Source: Branchiostoma floridae (taxonomy: Eukaryota > Chordata > Leptocardii > Amphioxiformes > Branchiostomatidae). From it: a stretch of DNA of 64,000 nucleotides. The stretch lies in assembly GCF_000003815.2 (NCBI RefSeq), contig NC_049993.1:12198106-12262105 (forward strand). The letters are read 5' to 3'. Both the position numbers and the translations under genes were made by a program. Each line of letters starts with the position of its first letter. Positions within the stretch are counted from its first letter, which is position 1. The notes under the pieces were generated by a model that worked only from the letters and a program-made list of their open reading frames with translations, did not search any database and had not been told where the DNA came from. Below are positions 1 to 54,800 of the stretch, piece by piece.

Positions 1-484
1 TTGCAGACAGATGTCAGTAGACAAACGTAATCAGCAGCACAAACAAACATTGTTACCAAAGTCTGTTGGTAGTCAACATTGCAAAGGCAACGTACAAAGA
101 CAAGAGACTGCTTGGTTAAGACTTTATTAAGACACTAAAAGTTTATTTCTTAGTGGTAAGGCGTGGTCTATTGAAATTGTATGAGAAGACGTTTTCTCAT
201 GAAGCTAGATGCATTGCTTGTCAGTCATTGCGTCGTCTTTAAAAGCGTGTGAGTTTTATTCTATGGCAACTGTTCTATCGTCTTGCCGCTAGGTGGGGAC
301 AAACACTGTACACTTGTAGCGACGAAGACTCCGCGGTATGTTGCTTCTTACTCGAGCGTAGAGTTGGTCAGTAAGGCAGTAAGTAGCACATTCAGCTGCC
401 GATCCGCGACACAGGTAAGATGCGCACATAGAGCTCCTACGTCTGAAAGCGCTACTTGCGAATATCGCCTTTCTGTCTTCTCAC

Positions 485-780
485 CATCGCAAGCATGTCG
501 TGCTGCCCGAATCTGCCGCTGTTCCAAAGCGTAGTTGTAGATCTGAAGACAGGCGATTCTCCCATGGAACGCTCTCGACTCAAGATCCCCATCTCTGTAC
601 CCCAATCTGATTGGTCCGCTGATGTTGAGCTCCGTGTTTCCTATTGGCTCGCTGTCAACGGCCACTCCCTGATGCCACAGCTTGGTCTCCCCGGACGTGA
701 CGTCATACGTCACGCCGACATAGTTCCACTTGTTAGGCCTGAGAACGCTGGCCGTCAGGACGGTTGGGTCCAGCGCAAAG
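485..780 (-). CDS. LamG/ConA-like domain exon, second half
   Basis: The exon opens in phase 2 after a pyrimidine-rich acceptor ending TTGTAG and completes the serine codon AG|C from the previous exon. The peptide runs from SFALDPTVLTASV through NKWNYVGVTYD and ETKLWHQG to HGRIACLQIYNYAL and ends HACDG. This is the carboxyl half of a pentraxin/LamG jelly-roll fold. The GRIACLQIYNYAL stretch is the usual final strand motif, followed by a closing cysteine. The donor ATG|GTGAGA is in phase 1, matching the phase-1 start of the domain, so LamG is a symmetrical 1-1 module. Reading through the donor would add about 45 residues of unrelated sequence to a stop at 348; I consider that less likely. Confidence 0.88.
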
Positions 781-3700
781 CTACAACGATGGGACATACA
801 GCATTAAGGTTTATGCTTCTACTTCCTCCAGCTGTTTTAATATTCTCTTCTTTCGTAACCCACTACAATTCTATAATAGTGATATGTTGGTTGATATGCA
901 AGCACTGAGGTATAACCAAAACGTGTTAAGCGTGTATACGCCAAAGTTACATTCTTTTTTTTTTTTTATTACCAAGCAGATTGGACGATGTGCAAAACTC
1001 CTACTGACCATATCATGTTAGCCATTGCCGGGAATACTCAGTTGTTTCTCCTTAATTTAAATGTGTTTTTTTTACAGTTCACTGACCCAAGGGTAACTTT
1101 GCGATGACTGATATGTTTGGCATGGCAACGCGATCAACTAGCCTGTAATCCAGTCTTGTTACGACTGCGCTTCGAGTGGTCGCTACCCCTTCAGCCTGGC
1201 GACAAGACTGGATTCGAGGCTAGCGATCAACAGCTGCCTGCACCTGGAGGTGACGTACCTCCCGAACAAGCTGTTATTGGCCAGCTGCCAGAGAGTGCAC
1301 CCTTCACTGCTGACGGGATAGTTCACGACCAGACCGGACTCCCCCATGGGATACACGTGCGCCAGCACCGTGACAGAGGCGTCCAGCACGTCCAGCGCAC
1401 CGTTGTTGGGGATCTCTACGAACGAGCTGGAGTTTCCCGCGAAGTAGAAAGCGCCTTCGCTGTCGTCCAGGGGCCCTTCCGCGAGCTGGATGCCTGAGGC
1501 GTTTCCATGGTTACCGAAACGGCTAGTGTCGTCTGCACCGTGACGCTGGCTTAGCGGCCAGAGTCCTACCAGACCTGATATGATATGATATGATATGACA
1601 TGATATAGAAGACTAAGGTACAACGTGATAGTGTACACATTTGGTAGTGGCTTTGACTACCTCTTTTTCCCTGTGCTCACTTAAAGTTACAGATTACATT
1701 CAGCTGCATTGACTTGTAGAAAGCAGACCTACTATTAGTACTAGCCCAATCTGTAAGCTATACAACAATCATCTTCAAGACACTGTTGGCCGATTCTACC
1801 TTGGTATGACTGTAGAACAGATGCATAGCACAGCTTTCACGAATCGGGCAGCAGATTTTAATTGGCTCCAAAAGGACCCCCTTCAACTATTCAGCGGTGC
1901 CTTTTTTGCCTTTCAAAGGTATTTGCTGCTTTTCAGCATAGACTAACCCCCTGACGCCCAGTTTGGGATGAAAGTGCCCACTGTCCATGAAATGGCTGGA
2001 AGAGGTTTTCTACCTACACCGATACCAAGGTAGCGGTTCTCAAGGTAGTGGTGTCACTGACAGACGGACCGTCTCATGTCGTTAGGAACGTCGTGCAGCA
2101 ATCCTTTAGAAATATTGACGTATAGACCAAGGCAACTGTCCACTTAACTTTCAAGACTAAGGACAAAGTATTTTGTCACAAATAGCTGACAAAGAACTCC
2201 CGACCTTCTCAGGACCATGGATGGAAGTCAGTGGGTAAGCAAAGCCATCTGTCGTTTGGATTCAGTTGGCGAATTTGCCCACTAGCCTTTGAAATTCGTC
2301 TTTGCCAGCCGACTACGAATTTGGACAAATCAAACTCGGGAACTGTTCGTCGTAGATGCGATCAGAAGATGCGGATCGAACTGCAGTTAGAGTAGGATGG
2401 ATTCCAGACAACTCCTAACTTATTCCACCATTGATCACCTTTGGTTTAGTAGTGATCGGAAATGAAGTCGTGGGAGGGTTCTGGATGTGTGAAAATGAAC
2501 TTTAAGGAAGTAAGGTATTTCACAAAATAGGTACAACAGACTGCATCATTGGCATCTTAAAGAACCGTTGATCATTGATAGCCAAATAAAACAATAAGAT
2601 TCTAACCTTGTTCTGGTGGCACCTGGCACTTCTCTCCGGAATAACCAGCTGGGCATTTACACTGAAAATCAGCATCTGGCAAAACAAGAAATAGGACTCA
2701 GTATGTTTTTTCAGTCCAAATATTTTTGCATTTTCGCAAAAACAAACGGTAAAATATATCCGGTTGTAACGTACATTCCTCTCTTTAAATCTATTATGTT
2801 TACATCCATCAAAATACCACACATACATTTCGATATATACATGTATTTCAAGCTCTATTCTTACATTGTTGACCATCGTATGATGCATATGGTAAGATGA
2901 AAATATCTTACCTTTATCTGTCCATTCCGGTTCCACCGCCCAAAAGTCTTTTGTTCCTGAAAAACAACATGAATGTTCTGGTTATGCAACTAAACTAAAC
3001 GAAAGTTATCCAGGCCAAACCCATGGACGCGAAGTACCAGAAATATCAACGTTTTTGCCTAGAAATATCATATCTGGAACTCGTTGCCACCGGTCACCCA
3101 GTACTGTAGAGGCATCCTCCTTTAGATAGCTTGAAACGGTACCTACAGATAGATGTGCAGGTTAGGTTATGACAGTGTAACATAACCAGCTGCTGCAGCG
3201 CCATGTGCCTGCGATGCTGGTGTATTACGCCGAAGGACTGTTATACTGGCTATTTAAATCTGGATACAGATACAGACACAAAAAAGAAAGACGTATAAGA
3301 TACCTTGGTAGGTAACATCTACATTGGCATCGGTATAGAGTCTACAGACCATGCCCCTAGTTTATGATACTCTGTAGTTTAGCCTGTTTACAAAAAACGT
3401 CTCACCTATCTCACAGATAAAGAAATTCTTATGTTCACATCTGGCGTCGTTCCACAAGAAGTTGTGTTGCCTCCGCAGCTCGATGCAGTTCTCGTTCCGC
3501 CTGCCGTTCGGCTCTCCTGTCTTCCAGCCGCCGGCCGTGACGTTACTTCCCGTGGCGTTCCACTTGAATACGCCCTCACTAGACTCGTCTGTTCCACTGG
3601 TCCAAAACGAATCTGTGTTTTACAAGGAAGAGTCAAAGATTTGCCCATTAGCTACAGAATGGATGTTTTTTTGGCCACGAAGCCAACTACCGTGGCAAAA

Positions 3701-6700
3701 CCCATAGTGAATAGAAAGAAAAAAACACACAATCGACTTTCGAAAATTCAAATATAAGTACAAATTGTTAATATTCTATCATGTAGAGTCCATTCCAAGA
3801 CACCATGCGGATGTTTGTGGCCATTGTTTAGAATTGATTTTAAAGTTTTGTAATTATATGTCTAGGACATTTGATACTTCAGAAATATTTGTAACACTGT
3901 TTCAACTTTATAAATATTTCCCTGGTCCTGTAAAACTTTGGAAATATTCATGGTGTGGAATTGGATACTTCTAATGGTTTCTAAATAATGATAACAGCAT
4001 TCTACCATTATTTACCATTTTCTACCATTTTCTACCATTTTTTGTAAATGGTTCAGTGGGCTGGGAAGATAGTAATTCACACATCCTTGCAAAGTATGGT
4101 TGGGTGCCATGCAACAATGGCCCACCACGAAGGATCCACCAGTGCCCAGCTGTGAAATCTAACAATATACAGATGAAACAATAGGGCTTACTTTTATGGG
4201 GGCAATAAACTAATTTAACCATTTGGCCAGGTTTACCATTTTTTTATATGTTTGTAAATGTGAAATAATCACACAGAGGTTTCACAATAATTCTAAATAA
4301 AGATATTTTTGTACAGTAAGTTTCAAAATGTTTCTAAGATATTCAAAGGAATTCAAATATATGAGTACTTTCTCAGTCAATTTTTTTAAAACAATTCAAT
4401 TATTGTGGCTCAGATATTCTTTTATTCAAAATAATTCAGACTAATTATAAATATCGCCTAAAAACCCTCATGGTGTCTTGGAATGGACTCTAGTATCTTT
4501 CATTAAAATGCCCGGCCCCTGTAATAAAAAGAAATGCTTTCTTCCCAAAGCATACAAAATTTGTATAATCAGAATCAATCAATCAATGTATCCCATACTT
4601 GAGGCAGCCATGTAAAAGAACGGGACATCCTGATGATTTTAGTACTACTATGTTACAGAATATTGATACCCACACCAAAAGAGTTAATTCAAGTCCCCAC
4701 ATGCAAAACCTTTCAACCCATTTATGCTGTCAATGAGCGATGCAAAAGACAAAGGATGACAGACACAAGCAGATGAGAGACAGAAGGTGGTTCAATTTGA
4801 GCGGGTGGCAATCTCGGCAATTATCGCGAGAAACCCAGAGTCTTGCAAGCAATGATCATAAAACATAGCCGCAGGGTAACACCTAGCAGTAAGTTCTTCT
4901 TGAACTACTTAGGCACCTTGTCACCATCCGGATTCCTGCAATTGTTTCCTACTCTTCCGGAATCCGGATATCTTTGCGAGGTTCTAAACTATCGACTACG
5001 TTATTACCGTTGCCGTTCATTGCCGTTGTGGATAGTGGCATAGTGGTACTTTGATGTTGTGCCCTTCCGTCGGCGCTGCGCCTCCGTCTTCCATTATCAG
5101 CATTTTCACGACCGTTGTTTTCCCTATCATTGTTGCCATTGTTGTTTTGCTGGCCATTGTTGCCGTTTCCTCCAGCGTTGTTGGTGCCGTTCCCTCCGTT
5201 GTTTCCGTTCCCTCCGTTGTTTCCGTTCCCTCCGTTGTTACCGTTCTCTCCGTTGTTTCCGTTCCCTCCGTTGTTTCCGTTCCCTCCGTTGTTTCCGTTC
5301 CCCTCGTTGTTTCTGTTCCCTCCGTTGTTTTCGTTCCCCACGTTGTTTCCGTTCCCTCCGTTGTTTCCGTTCCCTCCGTTGTTTCCGTTTCCTCCGTTGT
5401 TTCCGTTTCCTCTGCCATCGTTGTCACCATCAACTCCATTGTCGTCAACGTCAGCATCATTGCCATTATCATCATCATCCTCATAATCGTTGCCATTTCC
5501 ATCAGCATCGTCAATATTACCACCATCGGCATCACTGCCATTGTCATTAGCATCATCGATATTATCATTGTCATTGTCTCCCTCATTATTGACATTGTCA
5601 TCGTCATCACCACCAGCATCACTGTCATCAGCAACATCGTCATCGTTGTCATCATCTTCACTATTCCTTTGACTTTCGTCGTCATCAACATTTCCGTTGA
5701 CATTGTCTTCCTCCTCACCATCGCCGCTGTACCCATCAGTTGTGGGAGGTATTGGGCTACCTCCTGACATGTCAAAGAATAAAACGTATAGTCCCATACA
5801 TGTTTTTCTAAAGGAATAGCTTATATTAGAAAGGCGTTACTTGCTTTACGTAAGCACAGCTACATTATCGTTGGATGCAAAGCAAACCTTGATGTCCACA
5901 AATACGTATGACAACTTTTGTACAAAAATATCATTAAATGGGAATCCTTATTTGCAATTCTTGCTGCCTTTCTATTTTGACATCTTCCTTTTATAACGCC
6001 TTCTATATGTCGCATCAAAAGAATTCCTCTGGTGCATAAAGCTTGATTTAACAAGCAGATTGCCCTCTACAGCAAGTCTACAGCCACCTTGCAAAGTACT
6101 CATGGTTTGGTACCTGCTGACTGATTACACAGCGCTTTCACATCACAGAACCCAGTTCCGTTGCGCGTTTCTGTTCCATTCAAGTCTGGGTTGACCACGT
6201 TTTATTTAGAGGAGGAAAGAAAGAAATACACGTGAGACAGACGGCTTGTTCACACGATGAATACCTCCACCTCCACCAACCCCGCCACCAACCAATGATA
6301 CGAAACGGCCTCCTACGGCTTCCTACCTCCACCGACATCTCCATCCACTTCACAGACATAACTGAAGCTCCACTGATTACAGTAGGCATCCGCCCATTGG
6401 TCCGTCCGGGAGTTCCCTCTGTTTCCCCGCACAATGTGAGAACAGAGCCGGCTCTTGTTGTTCGGTTCTCCCGGCGCCCAGGGCTGGAACCCACCAGCCT
6501 CCGTGCCATCACTGAACACCCAACTTCCGTTGACTTTCATCAACCCTAGCCAAAACTGTTCAGTTCTGTCCAAACAGTTCTTGAGAAATACGACTCTCGT
6601 ATAAGACTCGGCGTCCTTTGGGGCGACCAGGCGACCGCCCTTAGCCTGGCAAACTTCAGAAGCTTGGGACTGAGTCAACTTTTCCAAGGAGGCGGTATAC

Positions 6701-9700
6701 GTTTTATTGTTGTAGAATAGAGTGTTGTTCGTCGGACATTCATCGAATAAGCCTAGAAACAAACGTGTACAATACATACGTCGTCTTTACAACAAGGAAT
6801 CAGATGCCTTCCTCTTATCAATGGAGAGAAAGAGGCCATGGTCACACACTCAATGGTCAAGTGCATCACCAGTGAGAACATTGTCTATGCTTTAATTTGC
6901 TGAAAATGGTCAGCTGAATTTTTATGTATCATTGGCATGTATGTATGATACCGAATGGCATAACGTATCACCATTGACATAAATCACCAAAAAACACATG
7001 CAGACAGTATTTCATCAACAGCAAAGCAAGCACAAACACACAAATATAGTGATTCCGGTATGTCTTAACTCTCGAGATTTCACTTTTCTTATAAAATCAA
7101 AGGGAATAGTTTCTGTGCAGTACTTCAACCACTTGATCATAAGTTTTTTTCTTCACATGAATGAAAATAAAAACATTTATTCGGAATATTGCAAACAAAA
7201 TTGCCACGAGGGACGCTCCTCTGATGAGGTGATCTGCAGCTCCAAGCTCTTCCTGACATCCGGTGCTGATATGGGTGAAGATCGTGTCTTCAAGCTAACA
7301 TATGTCAAGATCCACTGTAACCACATGTCACGGCAAGCCTCTCTGTGCACTCCTTTAGGCACTCTATCTTCTCATTCATTGATTTTGTCATCGACACCTT
7401 GTTTCTCTGTGACCCACCGACATCTCTACATACGAGAATTAAAGCCGATATCTCATTTGCTTGTGGAGCCAAAGTGGTGATCTCGCTATGTTCTGCTTGA
7501 GCTCTTTAGAGTTAAGATCGTGCCGACAAGTCTTGGAACGGAATATACGTGTAGATTAGGTTCCAGCTTATGGATGATGTTCATTGAACCAGGCTTTGTC
7601 CATGTTGATTTGGTTATATGGATGACATTCGCGTATCAATTTTTTTCGGCCAGAAAAAAATGTTTTGAATCATACTGTAAATCGTACAAAACACCTACAA
7701 AATGAGCAAATATACGCCGTGGGTTGAAAACAAATCGTAATACGTGTCCTGACGTTATAGAGTATCAACGTTAATTTAAGGCCAAAGGAGAAGATGTCAA
7801 AGAAGGAAATGAAACAAATCTATCGTTCGGTATACCATACTCTGTGTGTTAGGTCATCGTTGAACCTTCCCGGCTTATATTTCACAATGAAGCAAACTTT
7901 TTTCCAAACTTTTTTTTAAAATTCGCACGCTCGCATCAGTTTTGGGATTCCAAGAGGATGCCATCCATATAATTTAATCAACATGGCCTTAGATGTACAT
8001 TTTGTACTTCTAACAGTATGTCAGCAAAGTGACAACGAAGTGGACACCATTATTCCTATTAGTAAAACATATTTGCCAGTAGACCAACACTTTGCCCCCT
8101 TCCTCCTACATGTATTACGAACACCCCCACCCCTTTTCCTTAAACTATTTGAACCAACAGCCAATAAAAAGCACGTAATTTACTTTTACAACATCCTCGT
8201 GCTCATCCCAATATGTATCCCTTCAGCAGAGCCAAAGCTTTTACACTCCATCTATTTCCAATTCAATTTTCCCTCTCTACCAATAAAAGGAACACTTTCT
8301 TCACATGTCAGTTTCATCTGAAAACAGGTCAAGACATATTCCTTTTAATGTGCAAAATGCTATTCCTGAGTTGTCGACCATGACGTCTTTCCTGGCAAGT
8401 CAAAGTCAATTGAAATGTGAAATGATAACTTTGTAAACTGAAGTCACACTCTTTCCCAACTACATTGATTGCTTCGAAAAGACGAATCACATCTTCTAAA
8501 CGGCGTCCTTGGTTTTCTGCACATATAGAACACCTGATTACCCACTAAGTGGTGCCTTGCTCCGCACATCCATCTCCAGTGTCGGACAAATAGTAGGCAA
8601 TTACTCGGCGTGACAGGGCCTCATTCACGGCTTTTATACTTTCTTGTTGTGACTTGTGGGGGTTGTTGGACCTTATTTCCCAGTCATGAACCGAACGCCT
8701 TCAGCAGATGTGTCCGTGTGTAGCTAAAATGACTCACACTAAATCCTGTACATGATAGCAATAAGGGATCTGTCAGCACAGTAAATTGGACGCCATTCCT
8801 TCCAGAAGGGTGCAACAACCCTGCCAACAACCCACGTTGTCACCGAAAAAGGTCTTTGAACAATCTGTCAAGTGCGCATACGCCATACGCCCGGAGAAAG
8901 AACAGGGATGTGGCATTGACCGCCACGACTTGAACTTTTTAGAAACCAGAGACTGCTTTTAAATTCAGACCACACAATTGGTATGACATAGATTTATACG
9001 AGTTCAATTTTACCTACAGCACTTTGTACAGGAATTCACAACAAAATATGTAGGTTGCCCATGATGCTTTGCTGTTAGGTTTCCCATGTTGCTTTGCTCT
9101 ACTTTCCAATATGGCGTACTAAGTTTTCACCTGTTATCGTGCGCACGCAGCCCAGTTGTTATGTGTGTATGGCAACTGTGGCTATGGCTCAACAGTTCAC
9201 TCATTATAAAATCGAACAGTTTTTTTAATCTGATGAATAAAGATCGTGAAAAGGTAAATAACAGAAAAAGGCAATGAACTTGAGAGTGTGTTAAGGTGGA
9301 CAATTACTTTGGACTGGAGGTTTTCTGTTGGTTAAGATGTTGTTTTCTGCTTTGAAGAAAGTTATACATTAACCATCAGTGCTTTTCTACAGGCCGTAAA
9401 CATCAACTTTCATAATTTCCCCGGTGCCATGATATCGTCACATAAAGACCATTGGTAAAGAGACCTTTTCAATATTAAATGAACACCTAAATATCTGAAG
9501 CATATTCCTGAGGATTACTGATGCTGCATTGGTACATCTCTTTAAAAAACTTTAAATTCATTATTTTCTCATGTGGTGGTATTATGGTACTCCCCAAGTT
9601 GATGATACGTGCAAATGGGAATAATGAGAAACAAAAGCGCCATACTAACATCACTTCAACTTTTGACCAGTAAAATAGGGTAGAAAACTCACCACTGTAC

Positions 9701-9992
9701 AAGCCATTGACCGTCAGCGCTCGGAGGAAGTCGTGTTCTTCCTCCGTTTCTATGGAAACCAACTCTGAGGACTCCCCTCGACAAGTTTGCCTCGCCTCCT
9801 CCCAGCTCTTCCTGTCGTTGATGTGAAACTTGTAGCAGGACCCTCCCTGCCTGATCCAGCCCTCCGGACAGTTCAGACGGACCGGTAGCGAGTTGGGATG
9901 GCTGGAGGATGGAGTCACTGGTACGCATGTGCCGTTGTTCGAACATGGCGACCCGGCGCAAGACCCGGATGTAAAGGTTGGCAAAAGGCTCA
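485..9992 (-). CDS. Mosaic C-type lectin / EGF / LamG protein, partial gene (outer exon set)
   Basis: Six exons join in frame: 9992-9693, 3612-3406, 2956-2912, 2675-2607, 1574-1259 and 780-485. Together they give 1233 nt (411 codons). Every acceptor is AG and every donor GT, and the phases agree throughout (1-1-1-1-2-1). The order is an EGF amino-half, a long-form CTLD with EPN and WND motifs, a short linker, an EGF carboxyl-half and a LamG/ConA-like domain. In other CTLDs, EPN plus WND mark Ca2+-dependent mannose-type sugar binding, so a secreted or surface lectin is inferred. The last donor (ATG|GTGAGA) is strong, so the gene probably continues left of position 1. The first acceptor at 9993 shows that a 5' exon, presumably the signal peptide, lies at higher coordinates; I did not find it. 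The largest intron (3613-9692) contains another set of lectin exons on the same strand. I do not recognise a specific orthologue. Confidence 0.78.
781..1258 (-). other. Intron inside the LamG domain
   Basis: 478 bp intron in phase 2 between the two LamG exons, donor GTACGT and acceptor TTGTAG. Apart from a T-rich run near 954-967, I see nothing in it. Confidence 0.8.
1259..1574 (-). CDS. LamG/ConA-like domain exon, first half
   Basis: The exon starts in phase 1 after a repetitive acceptor tract made of ATATC units and ending CATATCAG. It encodes GLVGLWPLSQRHGADDTSRF, then an NHGNASG segment, AFYFAGNSSSFVEIPN and ASVTVLAHVYP. 'Glycine-leucine-x-x-x-WPL ... D.S...NHG' followed by 'F.G..S.FVEIPN' and 'VTV.A.VYP' is the amino half of a LamG_3/ConA-like domain. 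The donor GGGAG|GTACGT leaves phase 2, which joins exactly to the exon at 780. The two exons together make a domain of about 204 residues, the usual size for this fold. The ATATC tract at 1576-1605 is a small simple repeat overlapping the splice acceptor. Confidence 0.88.
1575..2606 (-). other. Intron between LamG and EGF half
   Basis: About 1 kb of phase-1 intron. Apart from the ATATC/TGATA simple repeat beside the acceptor, I recognise no element. Confidence 0.6.
2607..2675 (-). CDS. EGF-like carboxyl-half exon
   Basis: This 69-nt, phase 1-1 exon has a very good acceptor (TCCTATTTCTTGTTTTGCCAG). It encodes DADFQCKCPAGYSGEKCQ, then VPPEQ. The pattern C-x-C-P-x-G-Y-x-G-x-x-C is the second half of an EGF-like domain, holding cysteines 4 to 6. 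The exon immediately upstream has no cysteines 1-3. Those appear instead as CAGSPCSNNGTC in the exon at 9693-9992, on the other side of the CTLD. A nearer AG at 2662-2663 would create an immediate stop, so the longer exon is preferred. Exon size and phase fit a shuffled EGF module. Confidence 0.8.
2912..2956 (-). CDS. Short linker exon between CTLD and EGF half
   Basis: This 45-nt exon, phase 1-1, has the acceptor GTTTTTCAG and donor AAAG|GTAAGA. It encodes GTKDFWAVEPEWTDK in frame between the CTLD end (FFICEI) and the EGF half (DADFQC). It matches no domain I know. It is supported only by consistent splice sites and phases on both sides, so it is less certain than its neighbours. Confidence 0.6.
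2957..3405. other. Intron containing a LINE 3' tail fragment
   Basis: Phase-1 intron. It holds one copy of a dispersed 3'-tail repeat at about 3185-3280; otherwise I see nothing. Confidence 0.6.
3185..3280 (+). repeat. Non-LTR retrotransposon 3'-tail fragment, copy 1
   Basis: The core GCTGGTGTATTACGCCGAAG, followed by TTATACTGGCTAT and ending in GATACAGATACAG, recurs with small changes near 13741-13830, 43478-43545 and 52976-53040. Short dead copies sharing one 3' end that finishes in a short tandem repeat are typical of 5'-truncated CR1/L2-type LINEs. That family assignment is inference. Confidence 0.55.
3406..3612 (-). CDS. C-type lectin domain exon, second half (EPN/WND)
   Basis: This 207-nt exon, phase 1-1, has the acceptor AAAACACAG and donor ATAG|GTGAGA. 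It encodes the back half of a CTLD: SFWTSGTDESSEGVFKW, a GGWKTGEPNGRRNENC stretch, then FLWNDARCEHKNFFICE. EPN, the downstream E of NENCIEL, and WND are the Ca2+ site-2 ligands of mannose-type lectins in this family, so sugar binding is plausible. The front half of the domain (NCPEGW, SCYKF, WEEARQTC) is not in the 5 kb directly upstream. The exon at 9693-9992 supplies it: its split codon G|AT reads aspartate and gives the natural junction LYSDSFWTSG. Confidence 0.92.
   Translation of the reverse strand: MRFGPVEQTSLVRAYSSGTPREVTSRPAAGRQESRTAGGTRTASSCGGNTTSCGTTPDVNIRISLSVR
3613..4948. other. Interval between CTLD second half and the Asn/Asp-rich exon
   Basis: No CTLD first half can be found here on the minus strand. 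The interval is largely filled by the inverted-repeat element at 3784-4492. From 4493 to 4948 I see no gene; AATAAA or ATTAAA on the minus strand just past the stop at 4949 was not seen. Confidence 0.6.
3784..4492. mobile_element. 709-bp terminal-inverted-repeat element, TA target site (mariner/Tc1-like, non-autonomous)
   Basis: The first 24 bases (TAGAGTCCATTCCAAGACAC, then CATG, 3784-3807) are the exact reverse complement of 4469-4492. The outermost TA at each end fits a TA target-site duplication, leaving 22-bp perfect inverted repeats that begin GAGTCCATTCC. The interior is AT-rich, includes tandem TACCATTTTC units near 4013-4040, and has no transposase-like reading frame. TA duplication plus short perfect inverted repeats suggests a Tc1/mariner-mobilised MITE. 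The element lies in the intron between the Asn-rich exon and the CTLD second half. Confidence 0.85.
4949..5763 (-). CDS. Asp/Asn/Gly-rich low-complexity terminal exon
   Basis: The acceptor TTGACATGTCAG opens phase 1 at GGSPIPPTTDGYSGDGEEED. After that come about 85 acidic residues with runs such as EDDDNDDD. Then comes a minisatellite-encoded (GGNGNN)n region with single changes to E, V or R, then GRENADNGRRRRSADG, and a stop after IRIPEE. The RRRR|S motif would fit a furin-type cleavage site if the protein is secreted. The Asp-rich part could bind Ca2+; both are inference. A possible donor (AACG|GTAATA at 5007, phase 1) could instead splice onward to 3612, but it lacks the +5 G and is weak. 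Several antisense and shifted frames are open here simply because of the repeat. Confidence 0.75.
4949..6752 (-). CDS. Inner C-type lectin with acidic Asn/Gly-rich tail (nested gene or isoform)
   Basis: Three exons, 6752-6327, 6185-6114 and 5763-4949, join in phase 1 and end at a stop at 4949. The protein part seen is about 437 residues: a complete CTLD (about 1-140), a linker with three N-x-T sites and two cysteines, then a long low-complexity tail. The tail starts Pro/Gly-rich, becomes strongly acidic (Asp/Asn), turns into about 14 GGNGNN-type hexapeptides, and reaches an RRRRS basic site near the end. No signal-peptide exon was found between 6753 and 9692. All three exons lie inside the intron that splits the outer CTLD, on the same strand and with the same phase. 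They may therefore be a nested gene, an alternatively terminated isoform starting from exon 9992-9693, or, if the weak donor at 5007 is used, an insertion into the outer protein. Confidence 0.72.
5180..5425. repeat. 18-bp minisatellite encoding GGNGNN
   Basis: The plus-strand unit GTTGTTTCCGTTCCCTCC is repeated about 13-14 times with single-base changes and no frame-breaking indels seen. On the minus strand it reads Gly-Gly-Asn-Gly-Asn-Asn. The trinucleotide-multiple length has kept the reading frame open, so copy-number change would lengthen or shorten the protein without frameshift. Confidence 0.93.
5764..6113. other. Intron, nothing recognised
   Basis: 350 bp phase-1 intron (donor GTACCA, acceptor GTCAG). 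I see no repeat or exon in it. Confidence 0.5.
6114..6185 (-). CDS. Short Asn/Thr linker exon of the inner lectin
   Basis: This 72-nt exon, phase 1-1, has the acceptor TCAACCCAG and donor GCAG|GTACCA. It encodes DLNGTETRNGTGFCDVKALC, then NQSAG. It carries three N-x-S/T sequons (NGT twice, NQS) and two cysteines. No known domain fits. It is supported by phase agreement with the CTLD exon on one side and the low-complexity exon on the other. Confidence 0.62.
6327..6752 (-). CDS. Complete C-type lectin domain exon
   Basis: This 426-nt exon, phase 1-1 (acceptor TTTGTTTCTAG, probable donor GGAG|GTAGGA), holds a whole CTLD. Visible landmarks are FDECP at the start, SQASEVCQAKGGRLV, the WLGL variant of the WIGL core motif, GSWVFSDGTEAGG, WAPGEPNN, RLCSHIV, and QWADAYCNQWSFSYVCE. 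EPN is intact, but the usual WND is WAD here. The aspartate remains while the asparagine ligand is lost, so Ca2+-dependent sugar binding may be weakened. A single-exon CTLD contrasts with the outer CTLD, which is interrupted in the middle, so the two are probably not recent duplicates. Confidence 0.93.
6753..9692. other. 2.9-kb interval without a supportable exon
   Basis: This interval lies between the inner CTLD exon and the outer CTLD first-half exon. I looked for a minus-strand signal-peptide exon with a phase-1 donor and saw none. The plus-strand open frames at 6998-7480 and 7983-8321 have no recognisable content and unconvincing composition. Confidence 0.5.
9693..9992 (-). CDS. EGF amino-half plus C-type lectin first-half exon
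   Basis: This 300-nt exon (100 codons, phase 1-1) has an excellent acceptor (CCTATTGTTTTTTTCTTGCAG) and donor AGTG|GTGAGT. It encodes VSLLPTFTSGSCAGSPCSNN, where CAGSPCSNNGTC looks like EGF cysteines 1-3. A Ser/Pro spacer and the CTLD opening follow: LNCPEGWIRQGGSCYKF, then KSWEEARQTC, ELVSIETEEEHDFL and TVNGLYS. The domain is cut just before its WIGL region. Its natural partner in frame and sequence is the exon at 3612-3406. The next exon physically downstream, a full CTLD at 6752, is phase-compatible too. Confidence 0.92.
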
Positions 9993-12900
9993 CTGCAAGA
10001 AAAAAACAATAGGAATTTTGTTTAAAAACTACAATGACATATCTGTAATCATAGATCTTTGAGAGAATATCTATTTTTTTCATAAGTGAGAATATGTACA
10101 GCGTCCAAACCTTTGACTAAGTATAACTGCAACAATGCATTTTAGTATAAATGAAACATTGCAATTTTAGGTAACTTAACTACTTTCTGATACGTACATG
10201 GAAGTGATTACAAAGACAAATAAAGTTGTTTTGTCTTAAAGACGAGAGTACTTAGACGCCGAGAAGTGCGTGCGGTTGCGGAACATCTGTGTGTCTTCCA
10301 TACGTCTATAAGTAAAAGGAGCCCCTTATACACTCTTCTACGCTCAAGCCGCGACGTGCCCAGTCTCTCAAGGGATCCTACTCAACGTACTCGTAAAGCG
10401 CCTGGCAGACCCCCACAGCCTTTCAACAGTAAATTGAATCTACCCGTTGAAAAGTTCAATCCTGATTGTGGGCACCGATACCTGATGAGGCTGATAGTAC
10501 TAAGGTCAACAGTTACTCCATCTATTCTGCAAGATGTGGGTGAAGGACGAATGAGGACGAACACTTTGTCATTAGCATGCAACTGCTTGCACTGCATGTC
10601 AAAATGATATCTATAGGTTTTTATTGACTCATCAAAAGGTCTGCTACGGCTATATATGTGAACAAAGAAGTATCAATGTATCAAACATGTTGCGTTTGGA
10701 GTATCATTTGCACCATTGGTTCCAAGGTGTAAACATTAAGGTGTTACTTTTATGTCCTTAGTGCAATCAAGATATCTTACAAGGCGCACACAAGGATAGA
10801 TAAAACAGATGGTTGAGCATTTTTAAACAAATTTCATTGAGGATTCTCATTTTAGAGATTCAAAGTCAGAAATCTCGACATTTCATGTTTGTCCTAAAGT
10901 ATTCGTTATAGGTTTTGCTCCTTCTGGATGGAAAATGCTCAAATTATTGGCATCGATTCAAATCGTAGAAGCCTCGTTCACATCTCGAGTTATATCAACA
11001 CGTCGTTCTGAATGTTTACCTCAACAAGCACATGGCGAAAGGCGAAAAGTTATGCACGGGACAACTTCAATGTTTCCTGTCAAAAAGAAGTCAAATGTGT
11101 AGACAAGTTGCTGTCTGGAGAGTGGGCGCTATTTTTGTGCAATGATTATATACCACTCATTAGGTACGAGGTATTCAGTGAAGAATTTAATGAAGTGAAT
11201 GGTCTATTTACGCCTGGATATTTTCCCTACCTCTGAATAAAAATTGTGTCACGGTTTGTAAATTAAGACCCTATCAGTTTGAAATTTACGTTTAACCTCA
11301 CAAAAAACAATCAAGCAAAACTTTCTCTTAAGTGGTAATATACTTGGCAAAAATTGGTGATTTCTTTAACAAAAGACATGGATAGAGGGTTTGTGTATTG
11401 ATTGTATATCTGTGTACAACAATGGTACTGCCTACGGCATAGATCTCGAAGATAGCCATTGGAGTGACAAATTCTGTGCCGCCTTCTTCCCAAGTCACAG
11501 ACTAGTTGCTTAAAGTGACTCAAACGTTAGATATGAAAAGGTATTTGTCACTTTGTAATGAAGCTTTTGAACTCTGTTGACCTTGAAGAGGCACAACATG
11601 CCCTCTTCTCTCCACCAAGTTGGCGGCACATTTCCCTCAACTACGCGAACCCAAACAATGACGTCACCCCGAGAGGTAAATCACTTTGGCGCTAGACTGG
11701 CTAACGACCAACACAAAGAATCGGAGGTCGCGAATGTCGCGCCATGTAAATGATACATCTAACTGGTGCGAGGTTGTTTGGTACCAGACGAGCGAACCGA
11801 ACCACCTGCGGGGGCTTAGTGGGGCAAGGGTTAAGCAAGGATCGTCCTTGATAAGAGGACGGGAAATGCCTTGGCCGTGAGAAAAAAGTGGAGGCTGTCC
11901 GACAATCTTTCGCATGTGATGGCCTTTTGAGCTTTTCTAATCTCTACACTTTCTTGGTTGTTGGAGAAATACATAGTAGAATTTTTTTTAAATAGGCTGC
12001 TGAATTAGCCGGCAGAGTCTGGATGGCAATCTCCCGATCTCAAAATATGTGTGTGTGTGGGGGGGGGGGGCTGTTGTAGAATTTCCTTGGGAGGATGTTG
12101 GCCCTAGAGCCAAGAAGTTGGCCTATGGAGGCCCGGGAAACAGTCTGGCCAAGAAGTCTTGCATTTTTACTATTTCGCTTCATCGGACGGTTTTCACTAT
12201 TTTTCAGCAACCCAAGGAGTCTGACAGAGACTAATGTAAAAGCTCTTCTCTGACTTACTCCTCAGGAAAATAATTCTTAGTATTTGGCAAGTTTTTGTCA
12301 TTTTTCCTCAGCAATCCAAGGAGTCTGGTAGAGAATGACTTGGCTGGCGTACTCCTCTGGCAAATCGTTTAACCAATTTGGCCGACTTCTAAAACTTTTT
12401 CTGCAACCCAAGAAGCCAGCCTTCTCCGTATCCCATCCCATCCATTATCAGAAGTGAAGGAAGAAGTGAAAATGCAACCTTAACATAAGCGTATGGATTT
12501 TGTGTGACGCCGTCGTGTAATACATTTATGTATGGAGCCAGGTTATGGCCTCCCGAATGGCCTGAGCTCATGCCTAAAGCCACCGTCATATTGTCGGAAA
12601 ACCTGTCTAATGTCTTGACAACAGAGAAGGGAGCTGTAATTCTAGGTTATCGCCGGTTCCCTGATTCTACGTTAGCATCCCTAATGTATACAATTACGGC
12701 GACACCGCTATTTAGTCGTTCCTATCTGCCTTCCTAATCTCTCTATTTTGGGATTGGAAACGGTAACTATGGGTACTTCAAGATAAACAAATTAGGGGGA
12801 AAGTGGTAGTTATAGAATACATGCTTCTTCCGCAATTCCCTGGGATTTAGTATTTACGACGAAGGTACTGTAGTTGACACACAAACCAAGGATGGAATAG

Positions 12901-20026: not shown

Positions 20027-20227
20027 GTTGTTGTGTTCCGCTGTGTTTGCAGGCGTGAGCAGTGTCCTTGAGACATGTGTTTACGTGTGACAGACGTGCG
20101 TACCGCTGTGTAAACATGCCACAGACACCTAAACATCGCACTACACTACACGGGCTCTTCTGATGGAGCAAGGCGAAGGTGAGACCTGTTCAGAGTCACT
20201 GATTCAGAGTCTGAACAATCGAGAATC

Positions 20228-20372
20228 GTATCTTCCATAGAAGAGGAAGAGAGATGGACGGAAAAGAGGAGAGGCAAACAGATAGACGGAAAGGACAAAG
20301 AGAGACAGAGTGAGAGAGAGCGAGCACGGTGGAGAGAGAGAAAGAGAGAGAGCACGGTGGAGAGAGAGAGAG
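20228..20372. repeat. Purine-rich (GA)n low-complexity tract
   Basis: GAGAGAGA runs are interspersed with two AGCACGGTGGAGAGAGAGA units. A nearly all-purine strand of this length can form H-DNA; that is a structural inference only. Confidence 0.85.
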
Positions 20373-20450
20373 AACATATCTCTTCTTTTGACGTCTAGGC
20401 CTATATAAGGTTGTGAGTTGGTCAATGATTCAAATTTTGTCGAGATGTAT

Positions 20451-20574
20451 CGAGTGAGTGAGTGAGTGAGTGAGTGAGTGAGTGAGTGAGTGAGTGAGTG
20501 AGTGAGTGAGAGTGAGTGAGTGAGTGAGCGAGTGAGTGAGTGAGTGAGTGAGCGAGTGCGCGAGTGAGTGAGTA
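20451..20574. repeat. (GAGT)n microsatellite, ~30 units
   Basis: Nearly uninterrupted GAGTGAGT with a few GCG interruptions in the right third, which makes that part older. It is likely length-polymorphic. Confidence 0.97.
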
Positions 20575-20885
20575 CTAAGCGATTGGTTGCTTAAGTGAGA
20601 GGGTGACTAAAATAAAAATAGATAAAAAATCAAATGGGAATCTGCCAAGGATAAAGAGAAAATATTATTATCGACAGCCGCAATAGCTACAGACCTTGCC
20701 TAAGTAAATCCCCAGTTGCTGCCAGTGTTTCCATTATCAGCTGCCTCCTACCGATGACCACAAACTCGCCCTGAATGATAAACCCCGGCCCGGACGGGTC
20801 TTATTATCCAGGGACACGTGCCAGGCTCACTGTCACAGGCACGGTCTGGTAACCGCCAATTAGGCAGAGTTAAATCAGCCTCGGT

Positions 20886-34700: not shown

Positions 34701-35412
34701 TTATCCATCACAACAGAATGGCTCGAATTTCCAGCCTTATGCATAAGTCTACGTCAGGAATTTGACTCATTTTCCTAGCGCGCACTGACTTTTGGGATAC
34801 GTGACGTCATGGGTGGGTCAAAGGTGCCAGGGAGTCAATACCTGCCGCCGTCCCGATTCAGCGTAAGGTTTTGCTTATACTCTCCCTATGGTACAGCATG
34901 ACCGTCAGGATACCTCATGTGTTTCATGACCTTCAGATCGACACTTTTGGGCAGATCTAGATTCAAATCCAAACGCAGGATTATTTTACCCCTTTTTGGA
35001 ATACATTGTTGATCCCTGTTTCAGCAAGGCGCTTAACTTTAATTCCTGACCCAGAAGATAGTTTATCCATCACAAGAGAATGGCTCGAATTTTCAGCCTT
35101 AAGCATAAGTCTACATCAGGAATTTGACTCATTTTCCTAGCGCGCACTGACTTTTGGGATACGTGACGTCATTGGTGGGTCAAAGGTGCCCGGAAGTCGA
35201 TACCTGCCACCGTCCGTTTATATGGTTTATACTCTCTCTCTCTTGTACAGTATGACTGTCTGAAAAGAGAATACCTCATGTTTTTGATGACTTCAATTCT
35301 AGATGAACAGATCTAGATTCAGATCCAAACGCAGGATTCTTTTTACCTTTTTTTCGAAGCACAGATTGAGCGAGGCGGCTAACTTTAATTCCTGAGCCAG
35401 CAGATAGTTCAC
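34701..35412. repeat. Tandem duplication of ~355 bp, each copy with a full CRE palindrome
   Basis: Copy 1 is 34701-35062 and copy 2 is 35063 to about 35412. The best-conserved block in both is AATTTGACTCATTTTCCTAG, then CGCGCACTGACTTTTGGGAT and ACGTGACGTCAT. Both copies keep TGACGTCA (34802-34809 and 35164-35171). Copies have diverged more at the 3' half (ATCTAGATTCAAATCCAAAC versus ATCTAGATTCAGATCCAAAC). Confidence 0.88.
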
Positions 35413-45800: not shown

Positions 45801-48800
45801 CAAGTTAAAAAAATTCAAGATAGATAAATTGGTCATCTAAGATATAATACAATTAGCGTAATAAAAATATATACATCATACAACAACAACATAATTTAGC
45901 ATACATTGACAACAAACTACTGTGGCCTTGATACTAGGCACAAGGCACACCTGCAAGCTTGCAACATTTCCACAGATAAATATTGTCTGTAGAAAAGTGA
46001 CTTCTTTCACAAAAATACATTTGAAAAACAGCCCTAATGTCTTGGACTGAGACATTGAGTCTGTTCTAGGTATATAAGACATGGCAAATGTTCATCTTTT
46101 ACATTGAAATATATGTAACGGATTAATGCGACCATATAGACAGTCATGACAATACATTTTGTACAACACCGCCAGATGGCCCTTGGAGGAAAACTGTGGT
46201 TTAGATCATTCCTACAATGAAGACTTTGATCATGACAGGCCTTTGGTTACTACTCAAGGCCATATTCAGGAACATTAATGGCTTTCTGAGCCATGAGAAC
46301 ACCTTTTAGTCAACCAGTAGGCAAGTGTCACCTGTGAGCTATGAGTGGGAGTACTCCACTCTATGGCTCTGAGCTGGTATGTTTTCAGCCTCACTGACCA
46401 TGTCAGAGTTTCTTCCACACAACATCAATAATCCAATATAGTCTTTGCAGTATTCTGCTCAGGTGTGCCTGCACTAGTGCTATGTACTGATATATAGTAA
46501 TGGTACAGTACTGCAACAATCATTCAGGTACATGTCCAAAATACAGGTAAATCCATGCACAGGTTTTATACTGGTACTGCAGGGCTCGAAATAATACCCG
46601 CATATGCAGGTTAGTGCAGGCAAAATTGGAGCTGTGCAGGTATTTCTGGTGTCTAACTGCACCTAACATACACTGGTCCATGTGCAGGGTTTTATACATA
46701 AATATTCAAAGGTGTGGGTGCATGTCGATTGTTATTAGCTGCATTGACTGTTGCCACGTATTAGGTATAATGGTTCCTGAACCCTGTACTGTATCTGAAC
46801 ATATCATAGACTAAGTCTTGTATACTCAAGTGCCAGACATGTGTGTAACTTTTTACTTATTCTGTTACTGATACATTACATCAATGAAGATTAGACATTC
46901 AGGTAAAGTGTAGTAAAATATGCCAGATAATACTTGCTAAGTGAATGTGTTTCTTGAGTATCTCTTATTTGGCTTTGAAAAAACTGATGAAATCAGTGTC
47001 GCCTTTTCAAATGTGATATTCTCTTGAAAGCATGGGTTCTCTGCATGAGATAATGTACCCCAGGTAACAGAAATCCTGTTAACTGTTAATTTATGTTTAT
47101 ATCATTATTAAAGACCACAACACATTGTCCAAAATAGGACAGGCACAAGTAAAAAGCTGGACCTGTACCTACATCTCTGTACTGGTACCTGTAAGGTATG
47201 CAGCCTTTCCTCTTAGTATTCTGCACAGAACCTACCTAACACCCGTATCTGTGACACTACAACAACATCCAATACTGCACAGGAATCAAAGTAATAGTCC
47301 CATAATGACCATGTCCTCGGTAATGAAAAGGAAGGTGATGAGAGTGAATGGGAAAACAAGGTGATTACTGAGGCAGTAGATACAACCATCAGGAATCCAT
47401 TTAGGACACGACAGGAAATCAGTTCTCCTCAAGGGATGCTGTTCCTGGTGCTGAAAGGATGGCTATTGTAGCAGACTGGCAAAACAAGTACCGAAAATTC
47501 CCTTACGCTTGCAGAAAATTAAGAGTTGCAGGTATCATTGAGTCTGCGCTTCAAACAATTGTAGCAACACAATGGTAGACAGAACATGTAACATTACTTC
47601 AATGTGTGGTGAGTTTGTGGTGAGAGGACAATGCAAAAACAGTGCACTTAGATCTACAACATAGCAAAAATTTCAAATGTTATCCAATTTTAAGCCATAG
47701 GACATATTCCAACAACTTTTATGTTTGTATGTACTATGTATGTATATATGTATTTATGTTTTTGATTGTTTCAAACCTTTTTCTCAACTTCTTTCTTTTT
47801 TCAGATTGGTAAATATTCATAGTAATAGTAAAGTTCTTCAAACACAACCAAAGTTGTACTCAATTCCAACGTTTCGATGTCTGTCAGACACCATCATCAG
47901 GGTTGGAAAGACTGCCTATAAGTAGCAGCGCAAAGCAAATCCAGCCATTCCAACCCTGTTAATGGTGTCAGACAGACATCAAAACGTTGGAAGTGAGTAC
48001 TACTTTGGTTGTGTTTGAATAACTTTACTATATGTTATGTTTTCCTATCCAAAGAATGCGATTTCTCCCATGTTTTTTAATGACACCACTATATTCTCTC
48101 TTTATATTCCATCGAGCTTCTGACTCAATCCTGAGTGTGTGTCTACCAGCACTAGACTTGCTTGTTATTGAAATTCGTGTTCTTCAGCCATGCAGTAATC
48201 TTCAATCACGCTCTCAGAGAGTCTCACTTCATGCTGGAAGAGTTGATTCCCCCCTGATACAACCCCGTGATAAGGTTGCCCTTGCTTGGCCTGATATACA
48301 CTTGTAGGTCAATCACAGATACAAAATTCCATCCATAATCTATCTGTAATTTCCTACCCTGGCAAACTTCCCACTTTCAGCTTCTGAACCTCCCAACCAT
48401 TCAGGTGGAGCACAGTCTATTGACAGTCTTTGTGAATGATTTTCCAGTTTCTAATTGATTACTTCTATTAGTAGTACTGTAAATGCAGAAATGTTCGCGG
48501 TGGATTAATGTTCGCGGTTTTTGCGGTGACCACTTCACCGCGAACATTTTTCTATTATGGTATTAGACTGCAGTCTATGGTGTTACCGTGAACTTAAATC
48601 CACCGCGAAAAGTCCTTCTCCCCGCTACCGCGAAATTAAATCCCCACGAACTTAAATGCATTTACAGTATTTGTATGTAAGTAAGTAATTGATTAGACTA
48701 GCTATGGAACAAATGAAGTAGCAACATGTAAGACCAGTTGAAAGCCAAACTTGAGCCAATTAGAACAAGGGGTTTACCTTTGGACTCAATGTTCAGTGAA

Positions 48801-51800: not shown

Positions 51801-54800
51801 ATACTACAGGTGTAGCATGCTGGAATATACTGATGGCCAGAATGTACACGTACCCAGGTATATTCTGGCTAGGGGTACATTGTAGCCTGCTACACCTAAC
51901 AGTAACACTGTAATGTTTTATCATAGACTAACCTGTATGCTCCAACGTATGAGGATCTGTGCTGGTGTCTTCTGGTATTTAGTTGCTATTGTAGTGATGG
52001 CTGGCTCCTTGAGTGCACTCCCCTTGGCCAGTGGACAGTACCCCTCTACTGCAATACTGTGTGCCTGACAAAACCTCATCAAGTCTTTGGGATTTTGGTA
52101 AGGATGGTATTCCACCTGCATTAATACAAAAGAATGTAAAATATTACAAGCTGAAAAAAAATCTGTATCGTACAATGTGCACTTAAATAGCAATAAAGTT
52201 TTTGGCAACCTACACAGTGCCGACTCTAAAGACAGAGCCTGCTGGTAGCACATCTAATCGTCGCCTGACAGGGAACAACAGATGATAAACCAGATAGCCT
52301 GTGTATATGAGTGCCTAAACTTATACAGTATGAAAGAAAATTATCAAAGCCTAGGTAGGTAGGTGTAGGGAATTGGACACCCTGGTGTGTGACCTTGGTA
52401 CTGCAGTAAAACTTCCCATTTTTGTATCTTTTGTCCTGGACATGCTATGGTCTTGATTTTTTGGAGGTACATGTAGATAGCTTTTGATGTAAGGAAAAAG
52501 TGGTGTAAGTTTGGGCCACCTGGCAGCTTGCACTGGAATTGCAGAGGCATTTTTGTTCAAATATTTCAAGGAGGATAACTGAACAAAGCAACAATGAATT
52601 TCCATGATATTCGGTATGCCATGTCAGTTCAATATTGAAGTGGGTGCAGGTGGTTGACAGCTTTTTTCAACTACCATAATTAATAATGCAGTTGTCAGGT
52701 TTTTGATATGCAGCATATCAATGTACTTTAATTCTAGAACTGCCTTTGAAGTGAAATTGAGTAAAAATTCTATCCCATGTAGTGGAAGACCTACTGGCCC
52801 CTGTAACAGCTATCATTTAATGAATGAAGACCTTTATTGTACATTCATACCCACTGGGTTCAGTACAGGTCACAATAAATGATACAACACGATATCATGA
52901 TACAATGAATCTACACTACTCAAGAATCGTATTCTACTGCGTACATTTGGCTTCTTCTCGTTTCTTTGTGATATATAAGCTGGTGTGTTACGCCAAACGG
53001 CGGTTATACCGGCTATATAGATACAGATACAGATATTGAAAATGTAAAAACAGATATGCTTTATAAGTAAAGGTTTGTCTAGATTCATAAGGAATATAAA
53101 TTTGTCTATATTACTTAGTCGTATGAAGTGGGGGAACATGAAATCTATTAGTCTGTAGAGTTAAATGACAGTCACTCTTCTCTGCTCTGCTGGTTAGACC
53201 ACACTGATTTTGTTACATGGACAACAAGATCCTCTCGACTCATTTAAGCGGGTCAGGAAGGTTAAGCAAATGATGGAACACACAGAACATGGCACTTACA
53301 TATGATACTTCAATATTTTTGTTCACATCTTCTTTGACGATGGAAGACTTTGTCTAGGGATCAAAATACATTCTATTTTTCAGTTTATCTATACTGATAC
53401 ATGGCCAGGATGAAAGTCATGCAATGACATTGGTATCATGATATTTTCTGATATTTGTTATGCAGTTTACAGCATGTACTTGCTAAATTTGTAGCTTTTT
53501 TGTACATACTTACAGTATGGTTATAAACTTTTTTTTGACACAAAAGAAAATTGGAGTGCGCACAGATGTCATCCATAAAATAACTTCAGTACGGCCTTTG
53601 ATCAACATCTAATCTTTCCACCTACAGGACCTAGGTTTATTACTTGGTAATTATAATGGAATATTAACAACAAGTGGGGGGTGTTGGGCAATTTAAGAGG
53701 GGCATCAGTTTCACAGCTCTGTGCTCTCTCTGATCTTTCAAAGTAATTTACTGTGAGATATCAGTTCAAAGCCTACACACTATGTTTGATCTAGCAACCA
53801 GATAGCACTCAAAGTGACGTCAATGACAACAGCCCAGGATTTACAAGTTTGTAATTTGCAATTTGAAAGAAAGCTGTGAAGAGGGGATCTTCTCATCTGT
53901 ATGAGGGTGGGGGTGGGGGTGCGGGGTTCCCAACAATGCTTTATGTTAACTTCAGGAAAGCTGCCTACTACTAGTATGAGCATGAGTCCTGATAAATAGA
54001 AAGCACCATGATGCTTATTGCTATGTGGTTAGTGTGCGTAGTACAGTGGTTAGCAGCCCTGTCAGTGGAACTAGAAGCCGTGAGTTTAATTCTGTCTGTG
54101 TCACTCACCCGACATGCACTCTTAACCAGAAATGGCTGCAGTCCTTTAAGGACAGGGTGTTAATGTGTGTTTCACTTCATTGTGCTAGTCAAAAAGCCCT
54201 TGGGGAATTTCCCGGTACAATGAACCTGTCAATACTGTCTTCTCTTTTATGACCACTGGAAGAACAGCTCTCCAGTGAGCTGATATTGATATAACTTTCA
54301 CTGTTTTTGCTAAATTTTTCCCACCTTGCTAGGAAGTACATGAAATTGAAGAGCTTTCCTCCATGAATAGGTTGGTTAGGGTATTAAGAGGGTCTGCATG
54401 GGGGTTCCTGACAACGATTTACGCTGAATTCAGAAGATAACCCTACGTATTACGCTAAATCACGGAAGGCAATTACGCTAAATTTGGTCGCCTTGCTACG
54501 AATTACATAGATATAATAAGATGGTTTTCCCTACGAGTTACGCGAAATAAAAATAGGCTGCCTACGCCTTACGGAAAAGAGCATGCAGACCCTCTATCAA
54601 GGTTCTCTCTTCTACACAACCACTAACAATTCCCTACTGATGTTTGGGTAGTCTTTCTCCCTTCCTCAGGGCAATACTGACTGGTTCTATTTCCTACTAA
54701 TCCTAGTGCCAGAAGGAAGGTAGCAGAAAGACAACCCAAGCAATGGCAGGAAATTGTTACTGTAGAAAGAACCTTATTACCATCTAAAGAGGTTTCCCTA

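Follow-up and report, generated by a model that had tools for sequence, protein, structure and literature searches.

A second C-type lectin unit in the intron of a split C-type lectin domain of Branchiostoma floridae: a candidate nested gene

The stretch of Branchiostoma floridae DNA analysed here (the window; 64,000 nucleotides, contig NC_049993.1) contains on its minus strand a predicted gene whose C-type lectin domain (CTLD) is divided between two exons, and the intron between these exons contains the exons of a second lectin. On balance, we lean towards the following scenario to explain this locus. A host gene may encode an EGF(CTLD)-LamG lectin, with a separately transcribed lectin gene of the same strand nested in its intron. 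The host transcript would join 9693 to 3612, skipping the inner set of exons, and would give a lectin, secreted or on the surface, whose long-form CTLD lies between Cys3 and Cys4 of an EGF domain, with a Laminin_G_3 domain after it. The inner unit would most likely be its own transcript, with its own promoter and first exon, giving one complete CTLD, possibly a Cys-linker, and a tail, acidic and Asn/Gly-rich, that ends at a stop of its own. The inner unit probably arrived by 1-1 exon shuffling, and a role of the proteins in carbohydrate or microbe recognition may be proposed. The nesting of a lectin gene in a split lectin appears to be an unusual arrangement and, if the outer product is real, would involve two levels of nesting, a gene within the intron of a domain and a domain within a domain.

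The host gene and its two split domains

The exons were read from the minus strand of bases 12000–1, and their boundaries were checked by script; splice sites were scored with approximate frequencies as weights. In transcript order, the minus strand carries A, I1, I2, I3, B, linker, EGFb, Lam1 and Lam2. Exon A (9693–9992), with junctions AG/TGAGCC...TACAGTG/GTGAG, encodes the front half of an EGF domain (Cys1–3; Pfam EGF positions 1–14), a Ser/Pro linker and the front half of a CTLD. Exon B (3406–3612), with junctions AG/ATTCG...GAGATAG/GTGAG, encodes the back half of the CTLD, including its EPN, ENC and WND motifs. Downstream lie a linker exon of 45 nt with zero cysteines (2912–2956), the exon EGFb with the back half of the EGF domain (Cys4–6; 2607–2675) and two exons of a Laminin_G_3 domain (PF13385; 45.6 bits over positions 4–150 of 151, cut-off 27.6), whose boundaries and Pfam matches place the front part in Lam1 (1259–1574, exiting in phase 2) and the back part in Lam2 (485–780, ending at a phase-1 donor). 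A stop codon was not found in Lam2, and the outer gene thus continues towards or past the edge of the window. All junctions bearing on the nesting are AG/GT and in phase 1, the phase that the first-pass annotation of this DNA had given for all boundaries, but the junction between Lam1 and Lam2 is in phase 2. Compared with the other sites of the strand, exon A has an acceptor in the top 0.0% and a donor in the top 0.4%, and the splice sites of A, I1 and B and the acceptor of I3 all fell within the top 0–4%.

The first-pass annotation proposed one CTLD split across 9992–9693 and 3612–3406, and the profile searches agree with it. Pfam Lectin_C (PF00059) matched exon A alone at positions 2–35 with 30.1 bits and exon B alone at positions 41–106 with 38.1 bits, whereas the joined outer protein matched positions 2–106 of 107 with 73.2 bits (E 3.3e-20; cut-off 22.6), exceeding the sum of the halves. 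The predicted halves of the outer CTLD are complementary and score better joined than apart. The join reads LYSDSFWTSG, and the canonical EPN/WND domain expected from it is present in the joined sequence, in which the cysteines at 41, 52, 70, 142, 158 and 166 conform to the long form; we take the EPN, E-N-C and WND motifs to predict a full calcium/mannose-type site. A search of the sequences of solved structures with the joined outer CTLD returned 219 distinct sequences at E ≤ 0.001. Furthermore, a CTLD-back pattern had two matches in the six frames of the window, in the outer and inner domains, versus none in 40 dinucleotide shuffles, making a chance origin unlikely. The same annotation named a CTLD front half near 3.6–4.9 kb as the feature to look for against such a split, and no hidden one was found there: tblastn of the outer CTLD gave no second front half beside exon B, a strict CTLD-front pattern matched only exon A and plus-strand position 46823 in the six frames of the window (average of 0.275 matches in 40 shuffles), and Pfam returned zero lectin matches in 10 of the 22 minus-strand fragments of at least 22 residues at 3613–4948.

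The EGF domain of the outer gene is also split, a feature recognised here for the first time, as the earlier note was silent on the EGF halves flanking the CTLD. Exon A opens with SCAGSPCSNNGTC, containing the first three EGF cysteines, and EGFb carries FQCKCPAGYSGEKC, containing the last three, the two corresponding to positions 1–14 and 18/19–31 of the 32 in Pfam EGF (PF00008). The halves alone scored 18.2 and 20.2 bits, and 24.8 bits as two stretches when swapped, whereas joining them in order, with the Ser/Pro linker, the CTLD and the second linker excluded, gave 36.8 bits. Only the joined halves passed the cut-off of 21.5 bits, the intact outer protein scoring 20.0 bits. Across the six frames of the 64 kb, the EGF-front and EGF-back motifs matched once each, and 40 shuffles gave no match to either. 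Twelve cysteines are encoded by exons A, B, linker and EGFb together; six suit a long-form CTLD and the remaining six make up exactly one EGF domain, and nothing lies between the EGF halves except the CTLD and two linkers that lack cysteine. This pattern appears to be most simply read as the outer CTLD being inserted in the EGF loop between cysteines 3 and 4, the loop to which we assign the predicted split. The disulfides of an EGF domain join cysteines 1-3, 2-4 and 5-6, and the two ends of a CTLD are adjacent, which makes CTLDs natural guests for insertion in a loop. The folded arrangement of an EGF domain around a CTLD is a prediction from cysteine and profile positions; if true, an EGF hairpin that hosts a CTLD would offer a clean test of how disulfide-rich domains tolerate insertion.

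Base composition was consistent with coding in the large exons. The five large exons (A, I1, B, Lam1 and Lam2) all had a GC3 of 0.60–0.75, compared with a GC content of 43% over bases 1–10000. GC3 was at the background level in the small pieces, namely I2 (0.43), the linker (0.43), EGFb (0.36) and the tail of I3 (0.43), and compositional support is thus absent for the short exons.

The lectin unit within the host intron

The intron that interrupts the outer CTLD (9693 to 3612) is 6.08 kb long and in phase 1, and provided that A joins B, the inner exons I1–I3 (6752–4949) lie wholly within it. The full CTLD exon, the linker and the acidic Asn/Gly-rich exon with its stop that the first-pass annotation placed between the halves were all found, the linker with weak support. 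I1 (6327–6752, phase 1-1) encodes a complete CTLD according to its Pfam Lectin_C match (50.8 bits over positions 2–106 of 107, cut-off 22.6), its splice ranks and its relatives in the PDB, with 65 distinct solved sequences matched at E ≤ 0.001. AlphaFold, run on the inner CTLD sequence alone, gave a model with a mean pLDDT of 50.2, too low in confidence to use. The inner CTLD keeps EPN but has WAD for WND and RLC for E-x-C, residues that we regard as degenerate calcium/sugar-site motifs; with WAD for WND and the glutamate before the cysteine missing, its calcium site is probably incomplete. The inner domain is thus classed as a CTLD by its sequence, a classification that does not imply sugar binding.

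I2 (6114–6185, phase 1-1) encodes a 24-residue linker rich in Cys and Asn-glycosylation sites, and its boundaries have weak splice signals, the acceptor ranking in the top 48% and the donor in the top 9% of the AG/GT sites of the strand. I2 may be skipped, since the junction from I1 to I3 would also be in phase 1. I3 (4949–5763), entered in phase 1, encodes an acidic stretch and then an Asn/Gly-rich tail; it contains the acidic stretch, an 18-nt tandem array (5187–5412, 12.6 copies, coding mostly for GNGNNG by repeat and codon reading), a run of four arginines and the stop TAG (4951–4949). The tail of I3 is low-complexity, and its open frame alone is thus weak evidence of coding. Across 13 blocks (780 nt), the pattern [GA][AG]N occupied 9–20 of the 20 codons per block in the frame of I3 versus 1–11 in the other two frames, and in the first 11 blocks (660 nt) it occupied 13–20 of the 20 codons of that one frame. 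This one-frame pattern favours coding, though triplet-based repeats could mimic it, and by codon position the 18-nt array shows too few changes (1, 4, 5) to establish coding.

The inner and outer CTLDs share 24% protein identity, and the inner CTLD is thus not a recent tandem copy. A recent tandem duplication of one lectin was rejected on this identity and on a self-comparison, in which no inner exon matched an outer exon at the DNA level. One study describes exon shuffling in lancelets as extreme, with a bias towards the 1-1 phase (PMC4284660), and the inner unit, if it did arrive in this way, would show concretely how shuffling of 1-1 phase exons can nest one lectin gene in another. Another study disputes a high innovation rate in lancelets and reports a gene model that erroneously fuses a Lectin_C gene with its neighbour (PMC4967905). 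This documented error also bears on the reading that the inner set has been misplaced by assembly or is a presence/absence variant between haplotypes, as does the over-representation of C-type lectin domains among presence-variable lancelet genes given in a third report (PMC12373286). However, the window contains zero N, and the inner set has no duplicated flanks in a self-comparison of the first 13 kb against the window; an artefact of assembly or haplotype thus has a low probability in our estimate.

Alternatively, I1–I3 may be decaying or unused intronic exons. The degenerate calcium site of the inner CTLD, the weak signals of I2 and the failure to find a convincing first exon in 9692–6753 are in line with decay, but I1 is open over 141 codons, has a GC3 of 0.60 and is bounded by good splice sites, and we give this alternative only a slight chance.

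Self-comparison also revealed two elements with terminal inverted repeats in the host intron, one of 709 bp (3784–4492; 33-nt repeats of 91% identity, starting with TA) between I3 and B, possibly a Tc1/mariner-type miniature element in our view, and one (7600–7986; 29-nt repeats of 86% identity) between A and I1. The idea that transposons carried the inner set to this place was rejected, as neither element encloses the inner exons. Elsewhere in the window, an open frame of 447 codons on the plus strand (59032–60375) matches reverse transcriptase (PF00078, 111 bits) and is a retrotransposon remnant or copy. Self-comparison further detected, at 34701–35409, 47825–48031 and 60469–60660, a repeat of approximately 360 bp next to a direct copy of itself and two inverted, palindrome-like stretches of approximately 200 bp, and a tandem array with a unit of approximately 246 bp lies at 61433–62290. 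An open frame on the minus strand at 20204–20590 runs over a GAGT-type simple repeat and is probably not a gene. Upstream of the lectin locus, two minus-strand stretches match aldo-keto reductase (PF00248; 57429–57911, 56.8 bits; 51924–52253, 28.3 bits) and are parts of one or two reductase genes.

First exons and splicing of the locus

The nested gene was one of two readings offered by the first-pass annotation, the other being two lectins from one start. The nested gene is the best-supported reading, and its location within the phase-1 intron agrees with the exon map, but a convincing independent first exon was not found in 9692–6753. First exons were sought under strict and relaxed settings. 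A scan for ATG frames that combine a hydrophobic run with a phase-1 donor scoring above 0 returned none in 9692–6753. The gap contains 35 ATG frames of at least 15 residues, and in several of them a hydrophobic start is accompanied by a phase-1 GT; 18 frame-and-GT combinations from seven of the 35 frames were scored, with a maximum of 0.8, but a weak donor is conceivable, since the presumed donor of I2 scores 0.3. The candidates rejected as the inner first exon were the ATG at 9643, whose start is the most hydrophobic of the gap but has no phase-1 GT, the ATG frames at 9651, 6999, 7015, 6881 and 6839, whose phase-1 GTs scored from -9.0 to 0.8, and the ATG at 6777, which reads through the acceptor of I1 but has a short and weak hydrophobic run. 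Elsewhere on the minus strand above 6753 the scan gave 10 rows, none convincing for the outer gene, and on the whole plus strand it gave 8. An in-frame ATG at 10083 could also start exon A, but this reading was discounted, though not disproved, since most of the hydrophobic stretch of this frame comes from translating the polypyrimidine tract of an acceptor in the top 0.0% of sites. The scan thus found neither an inner nor an outer start, and it does not discriminate between a nested gene and a shared start.

In a shared-start arrangement, one upstream phase-1 signal exon would be spliced to 9992 for the outer product or directly to 6752, skipping exon A, for the inner product. A and I1 are each entered through a phase-1 acceptor, the gap before 6752 yields no convincing signal exon, and the cholinergic locus offers a precedent of embedded genes combined with multiple promoters and alternative splicing (PMC3053374). 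A convincing signal exon upstream of 9992 was not found in the same scan either, however, and we consider a shared start unlikely, while allowing it some weight.

The first-pass annotation also held that skipping or including the inner set keeps the frame. Skipping does so, but including the whole set breaks the frame into exon B, because I3 ends in a stop, and only a version of I3 shortened at 5719 reads on. This candidate short I3 (5719–5763), a 45-nt phase 1-1 exon, would end at the internal donor ATG/GTGAGG (5719/5718), which is in phase 1, ranks in the top 0.8% of GT sites and is the sole GT in I3 scoring above 2. Such donors occur at 0.45 per kb on the strand, giving approximately 0.12 expected in phase 1 within I3; as the site was also noticed post hoc, it is suggestive only. 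Joining A, I1, I2, short I3, B, linker, EGFb and the laminin exons gives a stop-free product of 591 residues, or 567 without I2. I1, with or without I2, and short I3 (5763–5719) might then serve as an in-frame cassette between A and B, placing a whole CTLD inside the outer CTLD, itself within the EGF domain. An extra exon within a CTLD has been reported for mouse CLEC9A (PMC3322459), and the small number of such phase-1 donors expected in I3 points the same way. The outer CTLD would, however, have to tolerate a long insertion at the junction of A and B, presumably in the segment of the fold that connects helix 2 to strand 2, and the acidic Asn/Gly-rich pattern kept in one frame over the first 660 nt argues that the long I3 is coding; we therefore rate the cassette as decidedly unlikely. 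That splicing could switch the locus among three lectins, namely EGF(CTLD), a CTLD in a CTLD via I1 (with or without I2) and short I3, and a form with the acidic Asn/Gly-rich tail of long I3, by selecting among splice sites of a single intron, seems similarly hard to credit, and we rate it slightly lower still.

For two lectins from one start, the first-pass annotation had foreseen an outer lectin-EGF-LamG form, which the exon map bears out, and an inner form of a half domain plus a full domain, which is unlikely. In the latter, exon A would be spliced to 6752, giving half a domain, a full lectin and the low-complexity tail. The phases permit this junction, but Cys1–3 of the EGF domain and Cys1 of the CTLD would be unpaired next to half a CTLD fold. 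With four cysteines and a half fold left partnerless, the cysteine pattern makes it the least likely productive form, and most likely a non-productive splice product; as an explanation of the locus, it is very improbable. A shared start that skips A, or inclusion with a shortened I3, would be a better two-product version than the junction from A to 6752.

Taken together, the evidence that we count for the nested gene comprises the complementarity of the CTLD and EGF halves, the cysteine tally, the 24% identity, the GC3 of the large exons, the strong splice ranks, the failure of the searches made near 3.6–4.9 kb to find a second front half and the 1-1 shuffling in lancelets. Against it we count the lack of a convincing first exon, the less common same-strand orientation, the 20.0 bits of the intact EGF domain, the background GC3 of the small exons, the weak signals of I2 and the low-complexity tail. 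On orientation, nested genes are mostly opposite to their hosts (PMC3933685). The splicing of the host from A to B and an independent start of the inner unit are predictions, and if the outer product is real, this would be a locus where a handful of junction reads separates alternative splicing from gene nesting.

Comparison with known lectins and nested genes

Literature titles and the beginnings of abstracts, searched with queries that were partly off-target and that left subscription journals mostly uncovered, gave no case of an EGF domain interrupted by a CTLD, which is not proof of absence. Among the best 60 of the 219 structure matches of the outer CTLD, the mannose-receptor family (yolk sac IgY receptor, PLA2 receptor and macrophage mannose receptor) scored highest, partly because several CTLDs per chain are summed. 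The outer CTLD resembles the CTLDs of this family in its match over positions 2–128 of 130 and in the classical pattern of cysteines and EPN/WND. However, the family has tandem CTLDs, whereas here a single CTLD would interrupt an EGF domain and be followed by Laminin_G_3. In Group XIV CTLD proteins and selectins, a CTLD is followed by complete EGF domains. The predicted host product is like them in combining a CTLD and an EGF domain in one secreted or surface protein, but they have a whole EGF domain after the CTLD, whereas here the EGF halves flank it.

At the level of the gene, VAChT and ChAT have the same orientation. The locus resembles VAChT in ChAT in that a coding unit lies in the intron of another gene, a setting for which multiple promoters and alternative splicing are described (PMC3053374). 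VAChT, however, is a single exon in the first intron of ChAT, whereas the unit found here is a multi-exon lectin unit within the CTLD-coding part of its putative host. Mouse CLEC9A, with an optional exon within its CTLD (PMC3322459), resembles the candidate cassette, but it gains one extra exon, whereas the cassette here would be an entire second CTLD.
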